From Daucus carota subsp. sativus (Eukaryota > Streptophyta > Magnoliopsida > Apiales > Apiaceae), in assembly GCF_001625215.2 (NCBI RefSeq), contig NC_030383.2, positions 60,316,949 to 60,380,948 of the forward strand: 64,000 nt of DNA, written 5' to 3'. Position 1 is the stretch's first letter. Every line of letters starts with the position of its first letter. This document shows positions 6,508 to 55,642 of the stretch, in pieces. The translations under genes and the position numbers were made by a program. The notes below the pieces were generated by a model. The model saw nothing but the letters and a program-made list of their open reading frames with translations. It did not search any database and was not told the origin of the DNA.

Positions 6508-8548
6508 ATGGCTGATTCTTTCTCTGCTGAGGATGACGAAGTTGGTATGTTTCCGCTTATTTGTTCTTCTGCAGATTCTTCTTCCGAGTTATAAATTCGA
6601 CTGTAGTCTGTGTAGTAAGGTTTCTAGTAATAATTTCTCTATAGTGATCCCATCTAATGATCTATGTTAATAAATAAACTCTCTAACATGATATCCTTTT
6701 TAAAATGATAATTTTTCCCGGTGTCAAGAATATCAGGGTGACACCATATCAGGGTTAAGGTTATATGATTTCAAGTCATATATCGTCTACTCTCTCTTTT
6801 ATTTACCATGTTAAGTTAGTGACCGTCCTTCAAACCTGTGATGATATCTACTGTGAAAACAAAGGGACTAGTTAAGGCTTCGGATTGAAATTTATGATTC
6901 AGTAAATGTTTTGGACATAAATTTTAGCTAAAAATTAGTCATAAAATTATTTTAAGCCCTAGCTGATATAAAGGAAGTTAGCGATTTTAGATTTTCGCCC
7001 CATATAAAGTCATGATTAATTATGTAATTTTTGGTACAGATAAAGTCATGATTCATCTAATTTTTGATGGATGCACACTCATTGTAGGGGTTTTGAGAGA
7101 AATAAGAGCCACTCCACCGGCACATTTCATGTTCAAGATCCAGTCTTTCTCACTCTTTTCTGAAAATGGCTTAGATGAGATTAGATCGAACAACTTGCAA
7201 GCTGGAGAGCACCAATGGTAACTTCTGAAGTTTCACTCTTATACTTGTAGTCTCTATCAGATTTTATTTCTTGATATTATTACAAGTTGCATTATGATAC
7301 GAAAATAGTTGCTATTTTTAGCTAGCCATCTTTGATTAGTTATTTGCATGCTATCTAATCAAAGCATCTTTAAGGTTGTGACTTGTGAGGTTGTTTGTGT
7401 TGTTTGAGAATATATGTTAACATTTTTTTCGATTTTGTAATTAAGCTGTGCTTATAATTTCTACAGGAAGTTAAAATTGTTTCCAAAGGAAAAATTTGAA
7501 GGTAATGGTGATCATGTATCTATATACCTGATGTTGGAAAGCACAGGTGATCTAGTAGCTGGTAAGGGTGTTGATACCATTTTCAAGTTCTTTTTGTTTG
7601 ACCAAATTCGAGGAAGGTATCTTACTGTTCAAGGTCTGCTTATTTATCATCCTCTTTATATCAAATTCATTGTATTGCTCTTTCTATATCAGAACTTGGC
7701 AAAAGAAACTTATAAGGTCTATGCAATGTATATTTCACAGGGAGAGCTAGACGTTTTGACAGGGTAAAAGACGAATGGGGCTTTGCTAAGTTCATCTCTT
7801 TAACAACTTTCGAAGACCCTACTAATGGTTTTTTAGTTGATGACACTTGCTATCTTGGAGCAGAGGTGTCTGTATTAACTGAAGGCTCGTGTATTGGTGA
7901 ATGTCTTTCAATATCAAAAGTTGACCACAATTTTTCGGGCAAATACAAGTGGGTAATTCATAAATTTTCTGAGTTAGGGGAGAAATGTGATTCCGATGTA
8001 TTTACTGTTGGACGCTATACTTGGTGTGTACTTCGCTAACTAGTAATGCTTGACAGTTTTATTAACGCCTATTCTCTGATATTCAGTCGTGGATCTGTCT
8101 GCTTAGATATAACTGCAATTTTTTTTTTGTACAGGAAGCTAGTGCTTTATCCTGAAGGCATCTCAAATTATAAAGGTTTTTGTGTCTCTTTGTTTTTGGA
8201 GTTTGCGGATTCCAGTAATTGCACTTCTGAGCACGAGGTGAAAGCACATGTCGTTTTAAAAATTATAGACCACTACTCTAATCAGAGTCATATACAGAAG
8301 AAAGGTAAGACCATTTTATATCTGCATTATTTTGATCCTTATTTTTATAACATTCTTATAATACTGTAGTATCTATTGCAGGGAGCAACTGGTTTGGTGT
8401 AGGCTCACCAGCCAAAGGTTGGCATTCCTTCATCGAACTAAAAGATCTCAAGGATCGGCAGAAGGGATATTTAGCTCAAGATATATGTATAATAGAAGCC
8501 GAAGTTAAACTGCTATGTGAAACTAGTCACAAGTCTCTTTGTTGCTGA
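6508..8548 (+). CDS. MATH/TRAF-like domain protein, copy 3 (complete, 317 aa)
   Basis: This is the best intact member of the tandem array. Exons: 6508-6544 (ATG; MADSFSAEDDEV), 7088-7217, 7467-7633, 7741-8023, 8135-8304 and 8382-8548 (stop TGA 8546-8548), giving 954 bases or 317 residues plus stop. Every junction is GT-AG and every phase closes. The first MATH domain covers roughly residues 20-155 (FMFKIQSFSLFS, FFKFFLFDQIRGRYLT, GFLVDDTCYLGAEV). The second covers about 175-305 (GKYKWVIHKFSEL, KLVLYPEGISNYKG, WHSFIELKDLKDRQKGYL). Introns lie at the same places in all three copies, so they arose by tandem duplication. There is no signal peptide and no membrane segment. Such proteins are thought to act as interaction adaptors; no specific partner can be inferred. 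Confidence 0.92.
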
Positions 8549-14756: not shown

Positions 14757-15590
14757 GAGAACTTGGCAAGTGAAATTTGAAACTAAGCTCTATGCTATGT
14801 ATATTTTGCAGGAAACAAGGCGTTTTGACAGAGTTAAGATGAATGGGGTTTTGCCGAATTCATTTATTTAAAATCTTTTGAAGAACCTGCTATGGGTTTT
14901 CTGGTAAACGACACTGGCTTTGTTGGAGTGGAGGTTTTTGTCACTGAAGGCTCATGTCTCAGGGAATGTCTCTCGATATCAGAAGTTGCCAGCCAAAATA
15001 TCTGAAAAATACCAGCGGAGAAGTAATCAAATTTCAGCACTGGGGAAGATATGTTTCTCTGATCAGTTTGTTGCTGGAGATCACAAATAGTACTTGCATA
15101 TAATGCTTGATATTTTTAACAGTGTGCTATCAATCGTTATGCAGTAACTTTACTTTCCTAATCTCCACAGGATGTTACTACTTCATCCCAAAGGCAACTT
15201 AGAGTGCAGAGGTTTCGGCCTCTCCCTCTAGTTGGTATCTGTAGTTTCCGCTACTGTACACAAAGTTAAAGCAGAGTTCATGCTAACACTCAGGGAACCA
15301 GCTTAACCAGAATCATGAACAAAAAAAAGGTAAAAGTATTTAAATACATTTTTTTCCTTCTAAATTGCAATTTCTGCTCACAATTTTTTAAATTAAAAAC
15401 AATTACTGAAACTGTTGTAATTGTTGCAGTAACCTGCTGGTTTGGTGCACCATATCAATACTGATACTGAGGTCGGCCTTGCTTAATCGGTCTGAAAGAT
15501 CTCAAAGATTCTAAAAAAGAACATTTAGTTTGCATAATTTAAGCCGAAATACCAGTGCTATGTAAAACCAGTCAAAAGACTCAAGATCTC
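14757..15590 (+). pseudogene. decayed MATH-domain gene copy (exons 4-6)
   Basis: Sequence matches the 3' half of the MATH genes at 0-8.5 kb. The intron 3 tail (GAACTTGGCAA) is followed by an exon 4 relic at about 14813-15090, exon 5 at about 15171-15310 and exon 6 at about 15430-15570. Lesions include a one-base loss at GTTAAGATGAATGGGG (frameshift), a TAG replacing the Trp/splice-donor region at CACAAATAG, and several further frame breaks. Exons 1-3 are absent. Closest to copy 1 by eye. It sits directly after the truncated dehydrogenase copy, so both may have arrived together. Confidence 0.88.
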
Positions 15591-15961
15591 TGAATTCCTC
15601 TACCTTCCTAGGTAGCAGGATGTAGTCATTTTCTTTATTTTTGGAATGAAATGTTGAATAGATTTTTTTCGGTCTGTTTAATACACTGAAAATTTGTGTT
15701 GCTTTGATTTTTACATTAGAGAACCAAGTTCTCAAGCAACAGCTGTCTTCACAGCAAAACAATTAGCAAAGATAAACAAGGAACTAACTGCTGTAGTATG
15801 CGATAAACAGAACTCAAAAACGATTAGCAAAGGATAGCTGGTAGCTTAAATTCACATATATTAAGATCAAAGCAGATATCACACATAGGTCATAATAATT
15901 CCCATAAACATAATAAATGTTTAAAATTTAATATATATTTTTTGCCAAACATGCACCAAGC

Positions 15962-41600: not shown

Positions 41601-44600
41601 CAACAATTTAAGGATACAACCCAAATATATGCTTACAGACTTGCCTACTGCCTAGCATACAAAATATTACAAGTGCAGATCCGTTTGAACTTGTAACTCT
41701 ATCTAATATACACCAAGTACTATCATACACAATATTTAGAATGCCTATCTAAATATTAAAATGCACTCCAGGCGCCCCCAAGGCGTTTCCCGCGCGCCCC
41801 AAGGCTCCAGCGCCCATGTAGAGCAGTTGTGGCAGTTACCAGCGGTTATAAGCAGTTCCAAGCAGTTTCTTTGCCCCACTCAGCCTTCTTTTTAGCCACC
41901 CAACTCAGCCCACATTAACCCACCATTTTGGGCCTTCAAGTCCATCTGATTTAGCCCACAAACACTTCACAAGAGTGTCCAGGCGCCCATAGGACGCAGC
42001 CCGAGCGCCTATGCACGCGCAACTACAATTTTGGCCCAAGTGCCTCCCTCACTTGGCCTGAGCAACCTGTCCAAATACTAAGCCCAAGACTCCATATCTT
42101 TAGCACTTAGCTTCCCACGAATTTACCCCAAACATCCATCAGCCCGGGTTGACTCCACCCTTCAGGCGCCGTCGCCCACCAGCGCCCTACCTTCGCCTGG
42201 TCGCTGCCTAGCTCAGCGACCGCCCTTGGGATCACCTAGACGCCCAAGTCCAAAATCCAATAAAACCACACAAGGGTGTTACAAACCCTCCCACCACCGA
42301 GAGTTTGATGTCCTCATCAAAACCAAAACCATCTTGAGAAATCCGTCTCCCAAATGTAGCAAACCAACGCCCCAACCCCGAGGCTATAAGTCCATCTGCT
42401 GCCTTGCTACCCAATAAACTCTGCTACCATAAGCTCAGCTAACCTTGTAAAGTTTCCAACTTTTATTTTCTCATCCAAGTCACCAATGCCTCACTGATGA
42501 CAAAGTGCAGGCGCCTAGCCACCTATACTACCCCTCAAAATAAACTAAGCACCAGCTGTGTCCCCAACCCTTGGAGACGTTGACTTGGATCCAACCAGAA
42601 AACCATCATGCACACTATCAAGCTCAAGTGACTCGCCCACCCCAGGCTTAATCCCACAGATTATGTCGCCCACAAGAACCTGAACAGCTCCACACTTAGT
42701 TATTTTCTGTTTACCCTTGTCAACCTTATTAGGAACAGCCTTCACAAAACATGGACAGCCCGTGTCCCAAATCATAACACCACCAAGGTGCATCATGACA
42801 GCAGTATTGGTCTTTACCATAAAATCAATACCAAGAATGCAGTCAAAATCATCTAAGACAACAACATGAAAGTTGAACATACCTTTCCAATCCCCAATTG
42901 TCAAGTCCACACTTGAACAGCCCCGAATCCTTTGCAACTCAGAATTAGCCGTCTTAATCTGATTTGTACTCGGCGCCAAACTCAACCCCAGCTCATTTGC
43001 ACAGTCTGTCGAAATGAAGCTATTTGTGGCACCCGTGTCCACTAAAGCCATCACAGCCACCCCATTCACTAATGCCTTGACATACATTAGTCCATCCCCC
43101 TCCACGGATTTTTCGGTCCTTAGCACTACCAAATGCAAGATGTTAGCCTTCACCATAGGCCCCTCGCTTTCCCCATCATTTTCCTCATTCTGCTCCTCCA
43201 CACGTAGAGCATTCATTTTTTCTTTCCTTGGGCAGTTCCTAGCATAATGTGGTCCATCACATATGAAACAACCCTTGTCGCCCTCCCTTGGAGCGTATTT
43301 CTCATCCTTGGCGTCCCCATCGCCATTTCCCTTGTCCTTCTACTTGAACCTGCCCTCATCCTTGTGATTCTTGCCACTGTTTTTACCCCTTTCAACATCA
43401 CCCGAACCAGCCTGCTTGTAGTCCACCAAACTATCATCAGCGGCGACAGCAGATGGCAAGTCCTTCACAGCCTTCCTCCTCAATTCTGCCTGCACCCAAG
43501 GCTTTAGACCGGCCAAGAAATTGAACAACTTGTCCTCATTCGACATGTTCTTTATATCCAACAAAGAACTGAATTCCTTCACATAATCTCGAACAGATCC
43601 CGTTTGTTTGAGATTCCTTAAACTTTCCCTAGCAAGCCAAGAAGCATTAAGTGGCAGAAATTGCTCCTTAAGTTCCTTCTTCAATGCCTCAAAAGTGGTT
43701 ATCACCGGCCTGTCCACACTCGCATCACCGTCCGTACGAGTCCGCCACCACAATTTTGCATCGCCAACCAAATACATACTCGTGATTGAAACTTGCTCCT
43801 TCTCATCAATATGGGCACTCCTGAAATACTGCTCCATGTCCCACAAAAAGTTCTCCAGATCCTTTGCAACCCGTGCACCACTATAGGACTTCGGTTCTGG
43901 AATTTTCACCTCAGAGTGCCCCTGCCTAGCACTGCTAAACATGTTGCTTGCCACAACCCCCTTCATGATGGTAAGTTCGTCTCCCAACTTCTTCACTTGA
44001 TCCTTCAAGCCATCAGAAGAAGCAGCAACCGTAGCAAAGAGATCAGCAAACTTATTTTCATTTGAAGCTGAGACACCCGCAACCATTTCCTTAAACTCAG
44101 CAAGTTCATTCCGTAAAAATAACAGAATAAGTTCATTCCGTATAATATCATGAAATAAATTTATATTATTTTCTTAAAATGAAGCATTTTATGTAAGAAT
44201 AAATAACAGAATATCTCCAAGCCTCTAGCTCTTTTAGTTTTTCTAGAGTGTTAGAATTATTGATCATTTTTACAATGAAATGCGATATACCTTTTTTCTT
44301 TAGTACTCTATTGATGAAAAGATAGTAATATTATCTCACATATATACGCGACATTGATGAATAAGTGTGTGTATATTTTTAAAAAGCGCCTCTCCTAGCC
44401 ATTTGAATTTCTTGTATGAGTATGTGAGGTAGATTACTGGGCTCTGACTTGAAATGTTACCAAATTTCAAAATGAAATTTTAACTTAAGAAATAAATAAA
44501 AATATAAATGCTTTTATGTTAATTTATTTTCAAAGTTATCGTCTATTTTAATCATCATCCTGATTTTGAAAGGATTTATTTTTTTATTCGATTAAAGCGA

Positions 44601-50480: not shown

Positions 50481-52521
50481 TATCCGGTTTAGAAGGTTAT
50501 GTTCACAATTGATGTCAAATAAGCTAATATTGTATCGTCGTGTACTGTCTTGATTGTAATTATTAGAACCGAAAGATCAAAGACATCGACCAGCTTGGCG
50601 TGGTGAATATGCAGCTTTCTTAAATTTACACCAACTGAAAGGTTGTAAAGAGTTGAATTTATTAGGTTTAAAATCATAGAAGGAGTGTTGAATACGATAT
50701 GCATTACAATTATTTATTTATTTTTTAAATTTTACGGATAAATAAATTATAGTCCTGTAACGGAGGTTTACTATGACAACTAATACAAACATTACAAGTC
50801 CTAACTTCTAGCAATATATTAATTACAATGCTAAATTAAGATTTTTGTGTGAGTAAGTTGTAGAAATGTATTGGTTAGAGTCAAGTACCTAGACTATCCA
50901 CAAAAAAGTTATCATGAATTGTGAAAATAGTCCACATATTTATAGGCTTTTTTAAATTAGCCACGATTAAGGGTCACCAGTTTCCTTACTTGCCTTGCAT
51001 ATATGAATATTATAGTTGACGCCAGTAATTTAGAATATTCAAACATAACTTTACTAGCGTCTACCATGAATACATATTTGCAGTTACTGTATGGCGTCAT
51101 AAGCCATGCCTTAGACATATTTCTATCAGTTGGCGCCTCAACAAACATACATACTATATTCTATATATAGGCGGCCACTCCTTTTACTTAAAGAAATATG
51201 CAATTCACAGAACATCTGGGGCAGAGTATTTCTTGTATACACTTTATGTAACGCCACTTAATTATCACTACAAAACATTATCTTGTGTCACTTCCATGCT
51301 TTAGTGAAATTTTGAGTTCTCTATCATATACTATATATAGTATGATTAAGGATACACCAACTCCATATATAAATACTTCTAATTCACTTGGCGCCAACTT
51401 GACTAATTATTTTTAAATATAAGTTTGAATCCTTAACAAACAAAAGGCTTTGACTTGATTTTGGAACAATTGAATTCAGTTGACTCAATCAATTATTCGA
51501 TTAATTATAATTATAGCGAAAAACTTTGTACATGTTGACCTTTAGTCCACTGACCTATTTCACAAATGACTAACACTGAAATCGAATTCCGTACCGTCTT
51601 TATCAGCGCAGTATTGATCAATCGGTTCATGGGCATCATGTGTTGATTATAAATAATCAATCAATTTATAAACTGAAATCTTGTAGCATTTCAACTAAAT
51701 CAGAACTACTTCTGTAACCCTAAAATTGTTTGAACATTATTCTCCACTAAGGCCGAGTTCTGCCATTTTGTGATCTCTAGTAGAATTTAGGATTTGTGAC
51801 TATTCTGATTCTTCATCTATGCCTGATCTTCAAAACTTTATGATTTCATTCGACGCTATATCTATAAATAAATAGGAGCTGGTATATCTTGCCTCTATCA
51901 ATGATTGTAGAGAATCATTGCAAGTACATCGGAACCTTACGACCATTTGAACAACATCATTATTGGTTCAATAATCTTCTAACACTTTAATCTTTATTCT
52001 GCACTAAGGCATGAACATATTAATGAACTTTTCAAGTGAACTTATTTCTTCAAAATTGTAGATGACTTCTTTATCCTTTATGTTTGAATCTTCTGATTCC
52101 TGTGCAGACATAGTACTATTTACTTGTCATGTTATAATGTTGAGTTATTATCCCTATGTAACAAATAAGATTGTCTTTACATTTAGACTTACAAAGTTGT
52201 CAGATGGTATTGTCTAAATAAAGGATATATTATTGTGGTAGGACCAGTCCAATAATGTTCGAATAAATACCCCATAAATATATTAAAAAATAGTGTTACA
52301 GTGATTTATAACATATTAACTTCAATAACATGTCTTATAACTGTGTCTTATTATTAAGATAATAATATATTTGAATTATTATTGGAGGGAAAGGAAAAGA
52401 TGAGAGCAGACAGATGTAATGAGATGAAAATAAGCTAATATTTTATTGATGAAAATGGTTTAGAACAAATATAATGATGCCTTAAATATAAGGTAGTTGT
52501 TGGAGCACTCATTTCTTAAAA
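50481..52521. other. intergenic, nothing recognised
   Basis: AT-rich. TGGCGCC words recur (51131, 51392, 51400) without a clear repeat structure. No gene found on either strand. Confidence 0.45.
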
Positions 52522-52526
52522 TATCT

Positions 52527-53226
52527 TGTTGGTTTTGAGATACAAGAGGGAGATAGATATAATATATTAGGTGGAAGTTTATTCTTTTATTCATCATAAT
52601 ACTCTTTATATAGAGTTTACATCAATCAAATAAGTATGATTAGTTCCACTTATATAGCCAAATAAATTACAAATATTTCTACAATCAATGAACATTAAAA
52701 CAAAATCAACTAATTAATATTTCAGTTATAAATTTGAATTATAATTCCAACACTCTCTTTTGATTCGAAATTGTAAAATTTATTCAACAATATTTAAAAA
52801 TGATGATGTACTTCTCATCATCACCAAGCATGTAGCACTTCTCTCCACAACCGTGAAGCACTTCTCTTCACACACGTGGTGCACTTGTCACCACAAACGT
52901 TTATCACCAAGCGGGGAGCACTTTTCTCCACAACCGTGAAGCGCTTCTCTTCACAAACGTGGTGCACTTCTCACCACAAACGTGGAGCACTTCTCTTCAC
53001 AAACATGGCTATGCACTCATACTCCTCATATAATATCTTGGGTGGAAGTTTATTCTTTTATTCATCATAATACTCTTTATATAGAGTTTACATCAAACAA
53101 ATAAGCATGATTAGTACCACTCATATAACCTAATCAATTACAAATATTTCTATAATCAATCAATATTAAAAAAAAATCAACTAATTAATAATATTTCAGT
53201 TACAATTTTGAATCATAATTCCCACA
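52527..53226 (-). mobile_element. TRIM-like miniature LTR retrotransposon (700 bp)
   Basis: Direct terminal repeats 52527-52752 (TGTTGG...CCAACA) and about 53028-53226 (ending CCCACA) share long matching stretches (GGTGGAAGTTTATTCTTTTA, CTCTTTATATAGAGTTTACA). A 5-bp target duplication TATCT flanks the whole unit (52522-52526 and 53227-53231). On the minus strand a purine tract CAAAAGAGAG (52753-52762) precedes the left repeat's TGTTGGAATT, so the element reads right to left. The right-hand repeat lacks about 30 bases of its inner end, and no primer-binding site is visible. There is no coding capacity; the interior is mostly a hairpin array. Confidence 0.88.
52802..53000. repeat. array of eight co-varying hairpin units inside the TRIM
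   Basis: Units of about 23 bases each form a stem with a seven-base loop of CACTTCT type: 52802-52822 GATGATG/CATCATC; 52832-52848 (decayed); 52853-52871 GTGAAG/CTTCAC; 52876-52894 GTGGTG/CACCAC; 52913-52931 GGGGAG/CTCCAC; 52936-52954 GTGAAG/CTTCAC; 52959-52977 GTGGTG/CACCAC; 52982-53000 GTGGAG/CTTCAC. Stem sequence changes between units while pairing is kept. The order GGAG, GAAG, GGTG repeats as a three-unit period. Confidence 0.88.
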
Positions 53227-53231
53227 TATCT

Positions 53232-53792
53232 TAAATTTGTTTTAGAACATCTATTTAGAACATTATTGAACTTGCTCTCTGAGACTGGTACCAAAGTACA
53301 TCAATGATATTCTCATTTTTAAGTTTCTTCTAATTAATTTTTAAAAAAGAAAACGAAGTTTAGTCTAAACAAGTAACAAGTTCTAATAAAGTTGTTCTTT
53401 CTTCATGGAAATACTAAGATGGGTCAAGAAGTTAGAAATCACTTTATTGATCTTCGGCTAAAAATAGTGGTAGCTATTGAAATCTCATATAAAACGTGAA
53501 CGTGATCAACTTTTCAAAGATTTTAGTGAACTTAAATTCGAATGGTGAATATAATTGAAAACTCAGAACCACTGAGATATAATATTCAAGGCTTTTTATA
53601 ATGTTTGTGTACGCGCTTCATATAGGTAAATGTCAATTAGTTGCACCAGTCCCAGCAGTATCATCCATCATTTCACACAGCTCCAACGACAGTTGGAAAT
53701 CAAAGAATTTGAGACGAGAATCTGAGTCTCACTCTTTGTTCAGTACATCAGGCACCAGATCTTTCCCCTTTCCCCTTTTATAATACTCCATG
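53232..53792. other. intergenic; one unassigned open stretch
   Basis: An open frame at 53601-53783 is richer in GC and Ser than its flanks (SHSSNDSWKSKNLRRESESH) and could be a relic exon, but I recognise no family and see no splice partner. Confidence 0.35.
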
Positions 53793-54039
53793 ACGTCGTT
53801 TAGATGAGTTTAAAATAAATGCTTCTTACTTGAAATAAAAAAGTGAAGTAGAAATTAGAAGCAAAGTTAAGACTTATAAGTATTATAAAGTGTTTGGTAA
53901 AAATGTAGATGTCATCAACAAAAACTAGTATTTTAAACTTCTTATAAATACTTCTCGATTTTTTATACAAACCGTACGAATAAGTGTTTCTAACTTATAA
54001 ATCCATAAACCGGGCTTTTAAACCCGGCCAAACACCCCA
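53793..54039 (-). mobile_element. Tourist-like MITE, decayed copy
   Basis: Reverse-oriented relative of the element at 55396-55642 (shared GGCTTTTAAACC-like end, AATAAAAAAGTG.AGTAGAA). It ends CCAAACACCCC followed by ATAA; the left end is degraded. Confidence 0.6.
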
Positions 54040-54877
54040 TAAACCTTCAGAACATTCATTTCAGGGAAATGTACCCAAAATATATTCCCAAAACCTTTCT
54101 CAAATGACATAGCTGACAGAAGATTAATTTTAATTGGGTGATTGATGTGCATACGGGAGATCCATTGTTATTAGTGTGAGGGTAACCAATCATACATTGT
54201 CAATTGAATTTGGGAAAAAAAAATATGAAAACAATTTTTGGATACCTAACGTCCTTTTTTTTTATTTTATCCTACTTATATAATACTCTATGACTTCAAA
54301 ACATTGATTTCATCCTACTTATATTAGTGTTATAATATGTTCTGCCTATCATTAGGCCGAACATAATTAAGTTTGTGTAATTTTGTTTCGTGATTGTGGA
54401 AGCTAATCATTATTTCATGTCATTTGAGCTAACACTTTTAGCTAACGAGATGTTCTTAATTAAATGTCTTAAATAAGAGAGGTGAATCGTAATACTTAAA
54501 TATTTTCAATTCACGAGTTCGTAGTTTTTGGTCACCTGCTGGATGAGTGGATATAACTCTAGATCATAAAGCCAAATCTCAATTGATGGTCAAAGATTTG
54601 TTTGTACTATATTCTGTTTGTTGGGAAGAGCAACTATATTAATTAATCAAGAGGTTTTTTTTTTTGAATTGTTAAACTTTCTGTGTATTTGCAGAAATTA
54701 GAGGAAATTATGATGATAAATTTAAGAAGAGAAAAACAATTGAACATCCGAGTACAGTCATGTAACAATCGCAACAAACTATGATAATAAAGTTGAAGAA
54801 AAAAGAACATTAAGATTTTTATTCTCTCCCAGCATTTCTAGCATAAGTAAAACGGCCAACTAATAATATAAATACTA

Positions 54878-55134
54878 TTCACTCCGTCACTTTTTAGTTG
54901 TCACATTTCTATTTTTGTTAATCAAATTGACTAAGTTTTGACCAAAAATTATAAGTCACTCACTCATTATTTTAAAAAACTGAAAATTACATCTTAAAGT
55001 AGGTTAAAAGTTAATTCCGGTGATATATATTTTTTATTTTGTCAATTGATAAAATATTAAAAAAATTCAGTCAAACTTTAGTCAATTTGACTGGCATAAA
55101 AACAAATGTAACAACTAAAATGAGACGGAGGGAG
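54878..55134. mobile_element. Stowaway-type MITE
   Basis: Ends TTCACTCCGTCACTTTTTAGTT and AACTAAAATGAGACGGAGGGAG, TA on both sides (54876-54877, 55135-55136). Confidence 0.78.
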
Positions 55135-55395
55135 TAATTATCAGATAACTGTTTAATATATGTAAAATTTTGGTCAAGATTTTAGAAAAAATATATAAAT
55201 AAATTGAGTGGGGGAAAATACTTTTCTGTGGTTTGAAGATATTGCACAATCCTTGTATCTGTCACTGTTCGTTCTGGAGACCACTTTACAAAGCAGGAAA
55301 AGTACATTATCGAATAGATTCGTGGAGAAGATCTGAGACTATTATATATGAATCTTAACATGGCCGTGCCAAACAAAAGTAACACCAGCTACTTA

Positions 55396-55642
55396 GGGGG
55401 TGTTTGTTTGACGTTTAAAAGTCCGGCTTCTGAATTTATAAGTTAGAAGCACTTATTCGTACCGTTTGTGTAATAAGTCAAGAAGCACTCATAAAAAGCT
55501 AGAAATGCTAGCTTTTGTTTCAGGACTTCTACTTCTTTCCCAAACACTTATTCACTTATAAGTCTTAACTTGCTTCCGTCTTCTACTCCACTTTTTTATT
55601 TTAAGCAAGAATCACTTATTTTAAGCTCACCCAAACGGCCCC
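55396..55642 (+). mobile_element. Tourist-like MITE (247 bp)
   Basis: GGGGGTGTTTGTTTG at left, CACCCAAACGGCCCC at right, TTA direct repeats (55393-55395, 55643-55645). Similar fragments occur at 53.8 kb and 63.34-63.46 kb. Confidence 0.75.

Follow-up and report, generated by a model that had tools for sequence, protein, structure and literature searches.

We found that a miniature retrotransposon in the carrot genome, and relatives of it with unrelated LTRs, carry an array of short hairpins whose arms stay complementary while their letters change. The element lies in the window, by which we mean the whole 64-kb stretch of DNA that was analyzed, and it belongs to a TRIM family, has suffered an internal deletion and occupies positions 52527–53226 on the minus strand. 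In our preferred interpretation, which we put at slightly short of an even chance, the array forms a module made up of short RNA hairpins immediately upstream of the polypurine tract (PPT), in which pairing was selected while the families moved, and which likely acted as a cis mobilisation signal.

Anatomy of the window element

The window element measured 700 bp, of which the 3' LTR took up 226 bp and what is left of the 5' LTR about 184 bp. Its parts were as follows.

52522–52526: left target-site duplication (TSD), TATCT, identical to 53227–53231
52527–52752, minus strand: 3' LTR (226 bp), sense start TGTTGGAATTATAATTC, sense end ..AAAACCAACA
52753–52761, minus strand: polypurine tract AAAAGAGAG, directly before the 3' LTR
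53007–53042, minus strand: internal-deletion junction region; 5' LTR end and PBS, ~0.3 kb, missing in comparison with intact copies
53043–53226, minus strand: 5' LTR remnant, sense start TGTGGGAATTATGATTC; TATA box at 53075–53084
53227–53231: right TSD, TATCT

The left border of the 3' LTR was set from intact genomic copies and falls outside the direct repeat visible within the window. Early LTR borders of 52568–52752 and 53039–53226, which came with a near-match TSD, were replaced when the intact copies gave the true left border and a perfect TSD; these two features also ruled out the right repeat as a solo LTR. The deletion was mapped by alignment with L029, an intact relative: positions 1–480 of the window element align to L029 3–499, and 517–700 to L029 817–997, in the second LTR. 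The tRNA PBS after the 5' LTR is absent from the window copy, having been removed with the neighbouring sequence by the deletion. The PPT of most intact copies (7 of 9 relatives examined) was CAAGAGGGAG.

Stops were found in all six frames of the interior of the window copy. An Rfam scan of 52300–53500 (E up to 5) gave three matches, all under the gathering score, and neither a hammerhead (retrozyme test) nor 5S rRNA (Cassandra test) was among the matches in this interval. The copy therefore has a PPT, a 5-bp TSD (TATCT/TATCT) and no coding capacity, as TRIMs do, and the earlier note was right to call it a miniature retrotransposon, given the two LTR parts, the PPT, the TSD and intact relatives with TRIM features.

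Several other features were seen in the window. Beside the TRIM is an inverted pair at 53797–54042 and 55393–55637 (~245 bp, 80% identity), which we take to be perhaps hAT-like miniature elements, and a miniature element at ~54883–55137 with the ends CTCCGTC/GACGGAG is presumably Stowaway-like. An LTR retrotransposon was represented at 42545–44086 on the minus strand by ORFs for a Ty3-type gag and an aspartic protease. A gene-like repeat family occupied 989–2071, 7462–8533 and 14774–15634 (~66–73% identity), and the ORF at 1303–1767 matched MATH domain models.

The hairpin array in the window copy

Eight loop-centred units were located in 52803–53000, starting at 52803, 52830, 52853, 52876, 52913, 52936, 52959 and 52982, and a CACTTCT-like loop (plus strand) was common to all eight. 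The units and the duplicated segment that contains most of them are listed below; stems are in plus-strand letters.

52801–52823, minus strand: unit D, 8-bp perfect stem TGATGATG/CATCATCA, loop TACTTCT
52820–52902, minus strand: 83-bp segment, first tandem copy (D tail and units 1–3)
52830–52848, minus strand: unit 1 (type A), with p1 and p4 unpaired in the window copy
52853–52871, minus strand: unit 2 (type B), GTGAAG/CTTCAC
52876–52894, minus strand: unit 3 (type C), GTGGTG/CACCAC
52903–52985, minus strand: 83-bp segment, second copy
52913–52931, minus strand: unit 5 (type A), broken at p2
52936–52954, minus strand: unit 6 (type B), GTGAAG/CTTCAC
52959–52977, minus strand: unit 7 (type C), GTGGTG/CACCAC
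52982–53000, minus strand: unit 8, GTGGAG/CTTCAC, A-type 5' arm with B-type 3' arm

A perfect 6-bp stem around a 7-nt loop was found in five of the eight units, the first of which extends to 8 bp, and unit 8 had a single G-T pair on the plus strand. The stems of the other two were broken, by two pairs in unit 1 (ATGTAG/CTCCAC) and by one pair in unit 5 (GGGGAG/CTCCAC). Thus the earlier description of eight units, each with a 6- to 7-bp stem around a CACTTCT-like loop, was accurate for the units, the loop and their place, but not for the stems of these two. The same note had reported one unit with a G-T pair, which is correct for the plus strand. However, the sense strand of the element is the minus strand, so that in RNA transcribed from the element the two bases form an A.C mismatch, and the use of this pair as support for a plus-strand RNA was dropped.

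The five perfect 6-bp/7-loop hairpins were compared with 2000 dinucleotide shuffles of the array stretch, which averaged 0.051 such hairpins and never exceeded 2, and the array was the densest 230-bp stretch for such hairpins within the 64-kb window. The arms were paired in 45 of 48 cells (93.8%, G-T counted) in comparison with a shuffled mean of 81.3%, and none of 500 shuffles equalled this value, which agrees with the earlier observation that both arms change together. The covariation score of the window array was 0.393 against 0.165 in shuffled arrays, with no score as high in 500 shuffles. Two further measures of the window array were unremarkable (both-side changed pairs, 89 of 500 shuffles; further pair types, 385 of 500).

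Units 5–7 arose by tandem duplication of an 83-bp segment made up of units 1–3 and the end of the first unit, and this duplication accounts for the three-unit order that had been noticed. Because units 5–7 were duplicated from units 1–3, the window holds only about four independent unit types (D, A, B and C): ATGATG/CATCAT, GTGGAG/CTCCAC (the majority of units 1, 5 and 8), GTGAAG/CTTCAC and GTGGTG/CACCAC. All 24 pairs of these four types were Watson-Crick pairs, and the real pairing of arms was the best of 24 permutations (exact permutation test, 1/24). When neutral divergence from one hairpin was simulated for the four types, full pairing arose in 1–3 of 69,344–384,191 conditioned trials, depending on the rate. 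The most parsimonious origin of unit 8 would be a fusion in which an A unit supplied the 5' arm and a B unit the 3' arm. A tandem-array control on the rest of the window gave 27 rows, 4 of which were the hairpin array; several AT-rich rows also had consensus hairpins of 4 to 7 bp, so that a hairpin within one repeat unit is by itself weak evidence.

The two 83-bp copies differed at 7 of 81 sites (the first 81 sites against 52903–52983, excluding the final two columns, which overlap unit 8), or at 9 of 83 with these columns, and the aligned LTR parts of the window copy differed at 16 of 185. These divergences were equal within error (Fisher p = 1), and the 83-bp duplication is therefore about as old as the insertion. 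Three of the seven changes since the duplication fell in stems, and all three broke pairs. The window copy is dead; its array drifts neutrally, and nothing visibly keeps the hairpins now.

Relatives in the carrot genome

The genome searched comprised 441,086,747 bases in 11 contigs, with 64,558,952 bases in the contig of the window. A search with the window element, in which 40 of 63 candidates were scored, gave at least 76 genomic matches, and one with the array alone gave 48. Units were counted in 46 stretches, including the window, and core units (at least four Watson-Crick pairs) were present in 39 of them. The 17-mer TGNNGCACTTCTCNNCA occurred 701 times genome-wide in comparison with 4 times for a reversed-pattern control, the former count being inflated by many matches in a TRIM satellite on C2.

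Fourteen loci with two LTRs and the array (L029–L040, L043 and L051) were assigned to family 1, with self-scored LTR identities of 89.7 to 99.2%. In L029, whose LTRs are 99.2% identical, the PBS TGGTATCAGAGC begins two bases past the 5' LTR and a PPT precedes the 3' LTR; the element has a 5-bp TSD. This PBS was exact in 11 of the 14 copies and had 1–2 changes in L030, L033 and L043. A script found an exact 5-bp TSD in five of eight relatives (L029, L033, L034, L036 and L037; not L040, L090 or L091). L034 was a tandem element, in which three LTRs alternate with two interiors. On C8, L030, L031 and L035 lie between common flanks, one of which is also found at L032; the first three are therefore one insertion multiplied by segmental duplication, and the loci are not all independent. 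A subgroup on C6 and C8 (L041, L042 and L044–L049) adds units with TTG/CAA stems at 30-nt spacing, and its members appear to have been duplicated from one or two sources.

Family 2 (L088–L093) has the identical loop at the identical position. In L090, the LTRs were 99.7% identical, the PBS adjoined the LTR and the PPT was GGGGGTGATT; the TSD, ATCCT, was read by eye, the scripted border search having missed it. Comparison of L029 with L090 by blastn showed that their LTRs share only pieces of 10 to 15 nt, whereas parts of their arrays match at 78–87% over 31–46 nt. The array adjoins the PPT in both families, each of which has young members. Up to about 10 hairpins were found beside the PPT; the number of units varies among copies, and their spacing is 21 to 37 nt, mostly 23 to 30 nt.

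According to excerpts of PMC6934838, a TRIM is shorter than 1000 bp and has direct repeats of 100–250 bp. The window copy (700 bp) and L029 (995 bp, LTRs of about 247 bp) are of this size, and L090 (1079 bp, 340-bp LTRs) exceeds both limits; excerpts of PMC4717578 count some elements of 1,172–1,449 bp as TRIMs.

The hairpin array was absent from two further young TRIM-like elements, L095 and L096, which have LTRs that are 98.3% identical, a PBS and segments related to family 2; L096 holds a single unpaired loop-like 7-mer. The array is therefore not obligatory for movement and is at most an aid.

Covariation across copies

The core units of the 39 stretches contained 97 distinct stems, of which 14 were perfectly Watson-Crick and 9 of these 14 occurred in at least two loci, although two of the perfect stems, TTATTA/TAATAA and CATGGC/GCCATG, may be non-homologous units. 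The pair varied among GC, TA and AT at p1, between GC and AT at p4 and between AT and TA at p5; variation at p3 was a single case, in L093. The earlier note had proposed other copies of the element as a test of the paired arms, and in the genome paired stems were indeed kept, with different letters.

Watson-Crick pairs at p1, p4 and p5 numbered 200, 249 and 281 in 324 array units, in comparison with 108, 163 and 149 expected from independent arms, with relatedness ignored. This set was formed from those of 381 loop matches that lay no more than 65 nt from another, in 40 stretches, family 2 not included. A null model based on a UPGMA tree and Fitch reconstruction was then applied to 129 unique units, drawn from 276 of 373 by requiring a G before and a C after the loop, which fixes the p6 pair. 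The data showed that 631 of 774 cells were paired, whereas the null gave a mean of 374 and a maximum of 514, and none of 300 null sets reached the observed value; the tree is weak, with units of only 23 nt. Ranked by corrected mutual information, the paired columns p5, p1 and p4 were numbers 1, 2 and 4 of 253 column pairs. Only p5 of the six pairs was significant alone (E about 0.007; 1.5 for p1 and 4.1 for p4). The array as a whole thus pairs beyond the tree-based null, and the covariation above background that had been proposed holds for total pairing, which exceeded all 300 null sets, but individually for p5 only. Units were chosen by loop identity, so loop constancy across copies is a selection criterion, and several loci are duplicates.

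The variation in the arms bears on the possibility that the array is a set of protein-binding sites acting at the DNA level, as an enhancer, insulator or silencer, with the hairpin incidental. Binding-site arrays exist in other retroelements, such as the gypsy insulator and the Tnt1 U3 boxes, and the constant asymmetric core GCACTTCTC with its mostly 23- to 30-nt spacing would suit such a function. However, a protein that reads sequence would fix the letters of the arms, and here the arms vary and tend to stay complementary; the spacing, from 21 to 37 nt, is also inconstant. We consider this explanation unlikely.

Strand and folding

Wobble pairs and stems were counted in 306 of 373 units, those with at least four Watson-Crick pairs, a choice that biases towards pairing. 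Selection on the sense RNA would predict an excess of plus-strand A.C cells (G.U in the sense RNA) over G.T cells. In these 306 non-independent core units, the former numbered 107 and the latter 41, but among unique stems the excess, 41 sense-type versus 28 antisense-type wobble cells, was not significant (p = 0.15). The three most widespread imperfect stems (22, 12 and 11 loci) were G.U-paired in sense RNA, whereas the fourth, ATGGTG/CACCAA (8 loci), had a true mismatch. Full pairing was seen in the sense strand for 15, and in the antisense strand for 9, of the 21 stems found in at least three loci; for the 65 private stems these numbers were 20 and 13. The stem counts lean towards sense RNA as the selected molecule, short of proof. 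Matches at p4 were also counted genome-wide, with 253 for the sense wobble (control 0) and 11 for the antisense wobble (control 2), but this ratio is unfit as a test, as 82 of the 100 listed sense matches lie in one tandem satellite and the other 18 resemble copies of one unit.

Fold z values for the window copy in two runs were -1.9 and -1.4 for the sense strand and -4.4 and -5.1 for the antisense strand, and the sense strand of L029 gave -1.8 against shuffles. The sense strands of these two elements were thus only modestly more stable than shuffles, and the better antisense values speak against selection on the sense RNA. Across 12 sequences, with 60 shuffles each, the values ranged from -1.4 to -7.0 (sense) and from -2.9 to -7.3 (antisense), ranges that do not help to choose between the strands. 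That both strands fold, and that fold-back copies of the array exist, would be in keeping with stacked hairpins or fold-back copies serving as a source or decoy of siRNAs. However, 6-bp stems alone are far too short for Dicer-like processing, and we regard a small-RNA role as very improbable.

Exchange, fold-back and expansion of arrays

Family-1 array sequence was found inside family-2 sequence in L065 (127 bp, 87%) and L066 (104 bp, 92%), and these mosaics indicate that arrays moved between families. The simplest route for the exchange would be reverse-transcriptase template switching on co-packaged RNAs. Head-to-head fold-back arrays were present in L094 and at C2:1530369–1530791 and, in less regular form, probably at C1:43305366–43305756. 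Strand-switching copying therefore occurs in these arrays, and this keeps alive a purely mutational explanation, in which quasi-palindrome template switching from arm to arm, in hairpin-prone DNA or cDNA during replication or reverse transcription, altered both arms in one step, slippage multiplied the units, and the array is a passenger that was not selected.

We take the mutational explanation to be a serious possibility, though one with the balance of probability against it. Excerpts of PMC8794818 propose that template switching creates or mends stems and so gives multi-base compensatory changes, and those of PMC7004042 describe tandem arrays at the 3' ends of plant LTR elements as hypervariable and as seeds of satellites. 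The change from A-T to T-A at p5 has no wobble intermediate, unit number is variable, and L095 and L096 lack the array, all of which fit a passenger. However, frequent correction of one arm by the other should erase mismatches, yet stems with sense G.U pairs persist in the 22, 12 and 11 loci noted above (not all independent), and the three stem changes since the duplication in the window copy all went uncorrected. The presence of one loop at one position in two families with unrelated LTRs is also unexplained by mutation, unless by common descent or exchange.

Two expansions of hairpin-bearing sequence were observed. At C2:15195152–15232546 or beyond, a hairpin-bearing TRIM is repeated in a long tandem array with a period of ~807 bp, which looks like a satellite born from a TRIM. 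In L061 (C3:42600700–42602700), the hairpin array itself was amplified in tandem blocks of ~330–370 bp.

A possible role in mobilisation

The position of the array beside the PPT, its presence in two unrelated-LTR families with recent insertions and the persistence of pairing through change together favour a cis-acting RNA role. The structure was probably kept in the active past of the families. The suggestion in the earlier note that the array may be kept as an RNA or DNA structure therefore applies to that period, as paired copies elsewhere indicate, but not to the window copy, which drifts neutrally.

Selection on a structured transcript would keep stems paired while the families were active. 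Most likely, the array would serve as a cis signal that helps the Gag or reverse transcriptase of a helper to recognise the TRIM RNA, package it or copy it. Redundancy would come from having several near-equivalent hairpins, slippage would lengthen or shorten the array, and template switching on co-packaged RNAs could swap arrays between families. We tentatively extend this to a modular mobilisation signal, built of near-equivalent hairpins that undergo compensatory change, traded between TRIM families with unrelated LTRs and recruiting helper machinery; we see this as possible rather than probable.

An autonomous gag-pol partner was not recognised in searches with the window element, the LTRs and interiors (in two of which 40 of 63 and 40 of 187 candidates were scored). 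Among the LTR matches listed (40 of 187 candidates scored), same-strand neighbours that pair start 684–1350 bases apart, which is TRIM-sized, and the interior searches, in which all candidates were scored, gave known TRIMs, short fragments and further places that, like others among the matches of these searches, could still harbour such a partner. In four 10-kb stretches by family-1-like arrays (L084–L087), no sense frame stayed free of stops for more than 176 aa. Among the eight self-matches listed for each of L085–L087, none was clearly a pair of LTRs enclosing a long interior, and the self-match list of L084 was filled by a satellite of ~160-bp period and is uninformative on an LTR pair. 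Open stretches of 133 and 145 aa run across the arrays of L084 and L086, and 23-nt units shift the frame.

The earlier note had also offered dimerisation as a function. A kissing-loop signal of this kind has been proposed for yeast Ty1, according to excerpts of PMC5454406, and the carrot array is likewise a cluster of hairpins in the RNA of an LTR element. However, the sense loop AGAAGUG is not self-complementary, only 2 of 14 elements had CACTTC anywhere beyond the array, and the array is at the 3' end rather than in the 5' leader. The dimerisation claim is accordingly disfavoured, and we give it hardly any credence.

Comparison with known systems

Among the literature titles searched, with most subscription papers outside the search, none dealt with hairpin arrays that covary in TRIMs, whether of carrot or of another organism. 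Excerpts of a paper on carrot LTR elements (PMC9324142), which by its title are active in callus, mention neither hairpin nor stem-loop, and their matches to "trim" refer to a read-trimming program. Four pattern searches of viral contigs gave 0, 19, 0 and 0 matches, and two of prokaryote contigs gave 0 and 1; these 20 matches were rejected as chance rather than arrays, being single units of which 5 had paired NN/NN. A plasmid search gave one 35-base match.

The carrot elements resemble the plant TRIMs described in excerpts of PMC4717578 and PMC6934838 in their small size, two direct repeats, tRNA-iMet PBS, PPT and 5-bp TSD, in the lack of coding (window copy) and in the occurrence of tandem forms (here L034 and the satellite at 15.195 Mb of C2). 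In contrast, a hairpin array common to families with unrelated LTRs is not mentioned in those excerpts. Excerpts of PMC4717578 describe the mechanism of TRIM transposition as ambiguous and report 11 large TRIM-related LTR elements. For the copying of non-coding TRIMs, an RNA module that covaries and is common to families with unrelated LTRs offers a concrete candidate cis signal. If the pattern is purely mutational, it is natural covariation without selection, and it bears on how far covariation can be taken to prove RNA structure.

According to excerpts of PMC7004042, Ogre/Tat elements have tandem repeats in their 3' UTR that also form a short, length-variable array before the 3' LTR and can become satellites. 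However, their monomers vary in sequence and length, whereas the carrot array keeps its loop and its pairing, and no gag-pol was seen with it. Bivalve TRIM and GalEa elements have a conserved hairpin, and thus likewise place inverted repeats inside a miniature LTR element, but excerpts of PMC6934838 describe one hairpin with 9- to 10-bp arms and a suggested PBS role, in contrast with the row of hairpins beside the PPT and the normal PBS in most intact carrot copies.

The human L1/Alu pair differs in that LINEs and SINEs have a single stem-loop, whereas the carrot elements are LTR elements with an array, for which the searches above recognised no partner. Nevertheless, the 3' stem-loop proposed for L1 and Alu, and known in stringent-type LINEs (excerpts of PMC5135761), is likewise a hairpin thought to be read by the reverse transcriptase of a partner, and we would regard this LINE/SINE stem-loop as the nearest working analogy for the carrot array.
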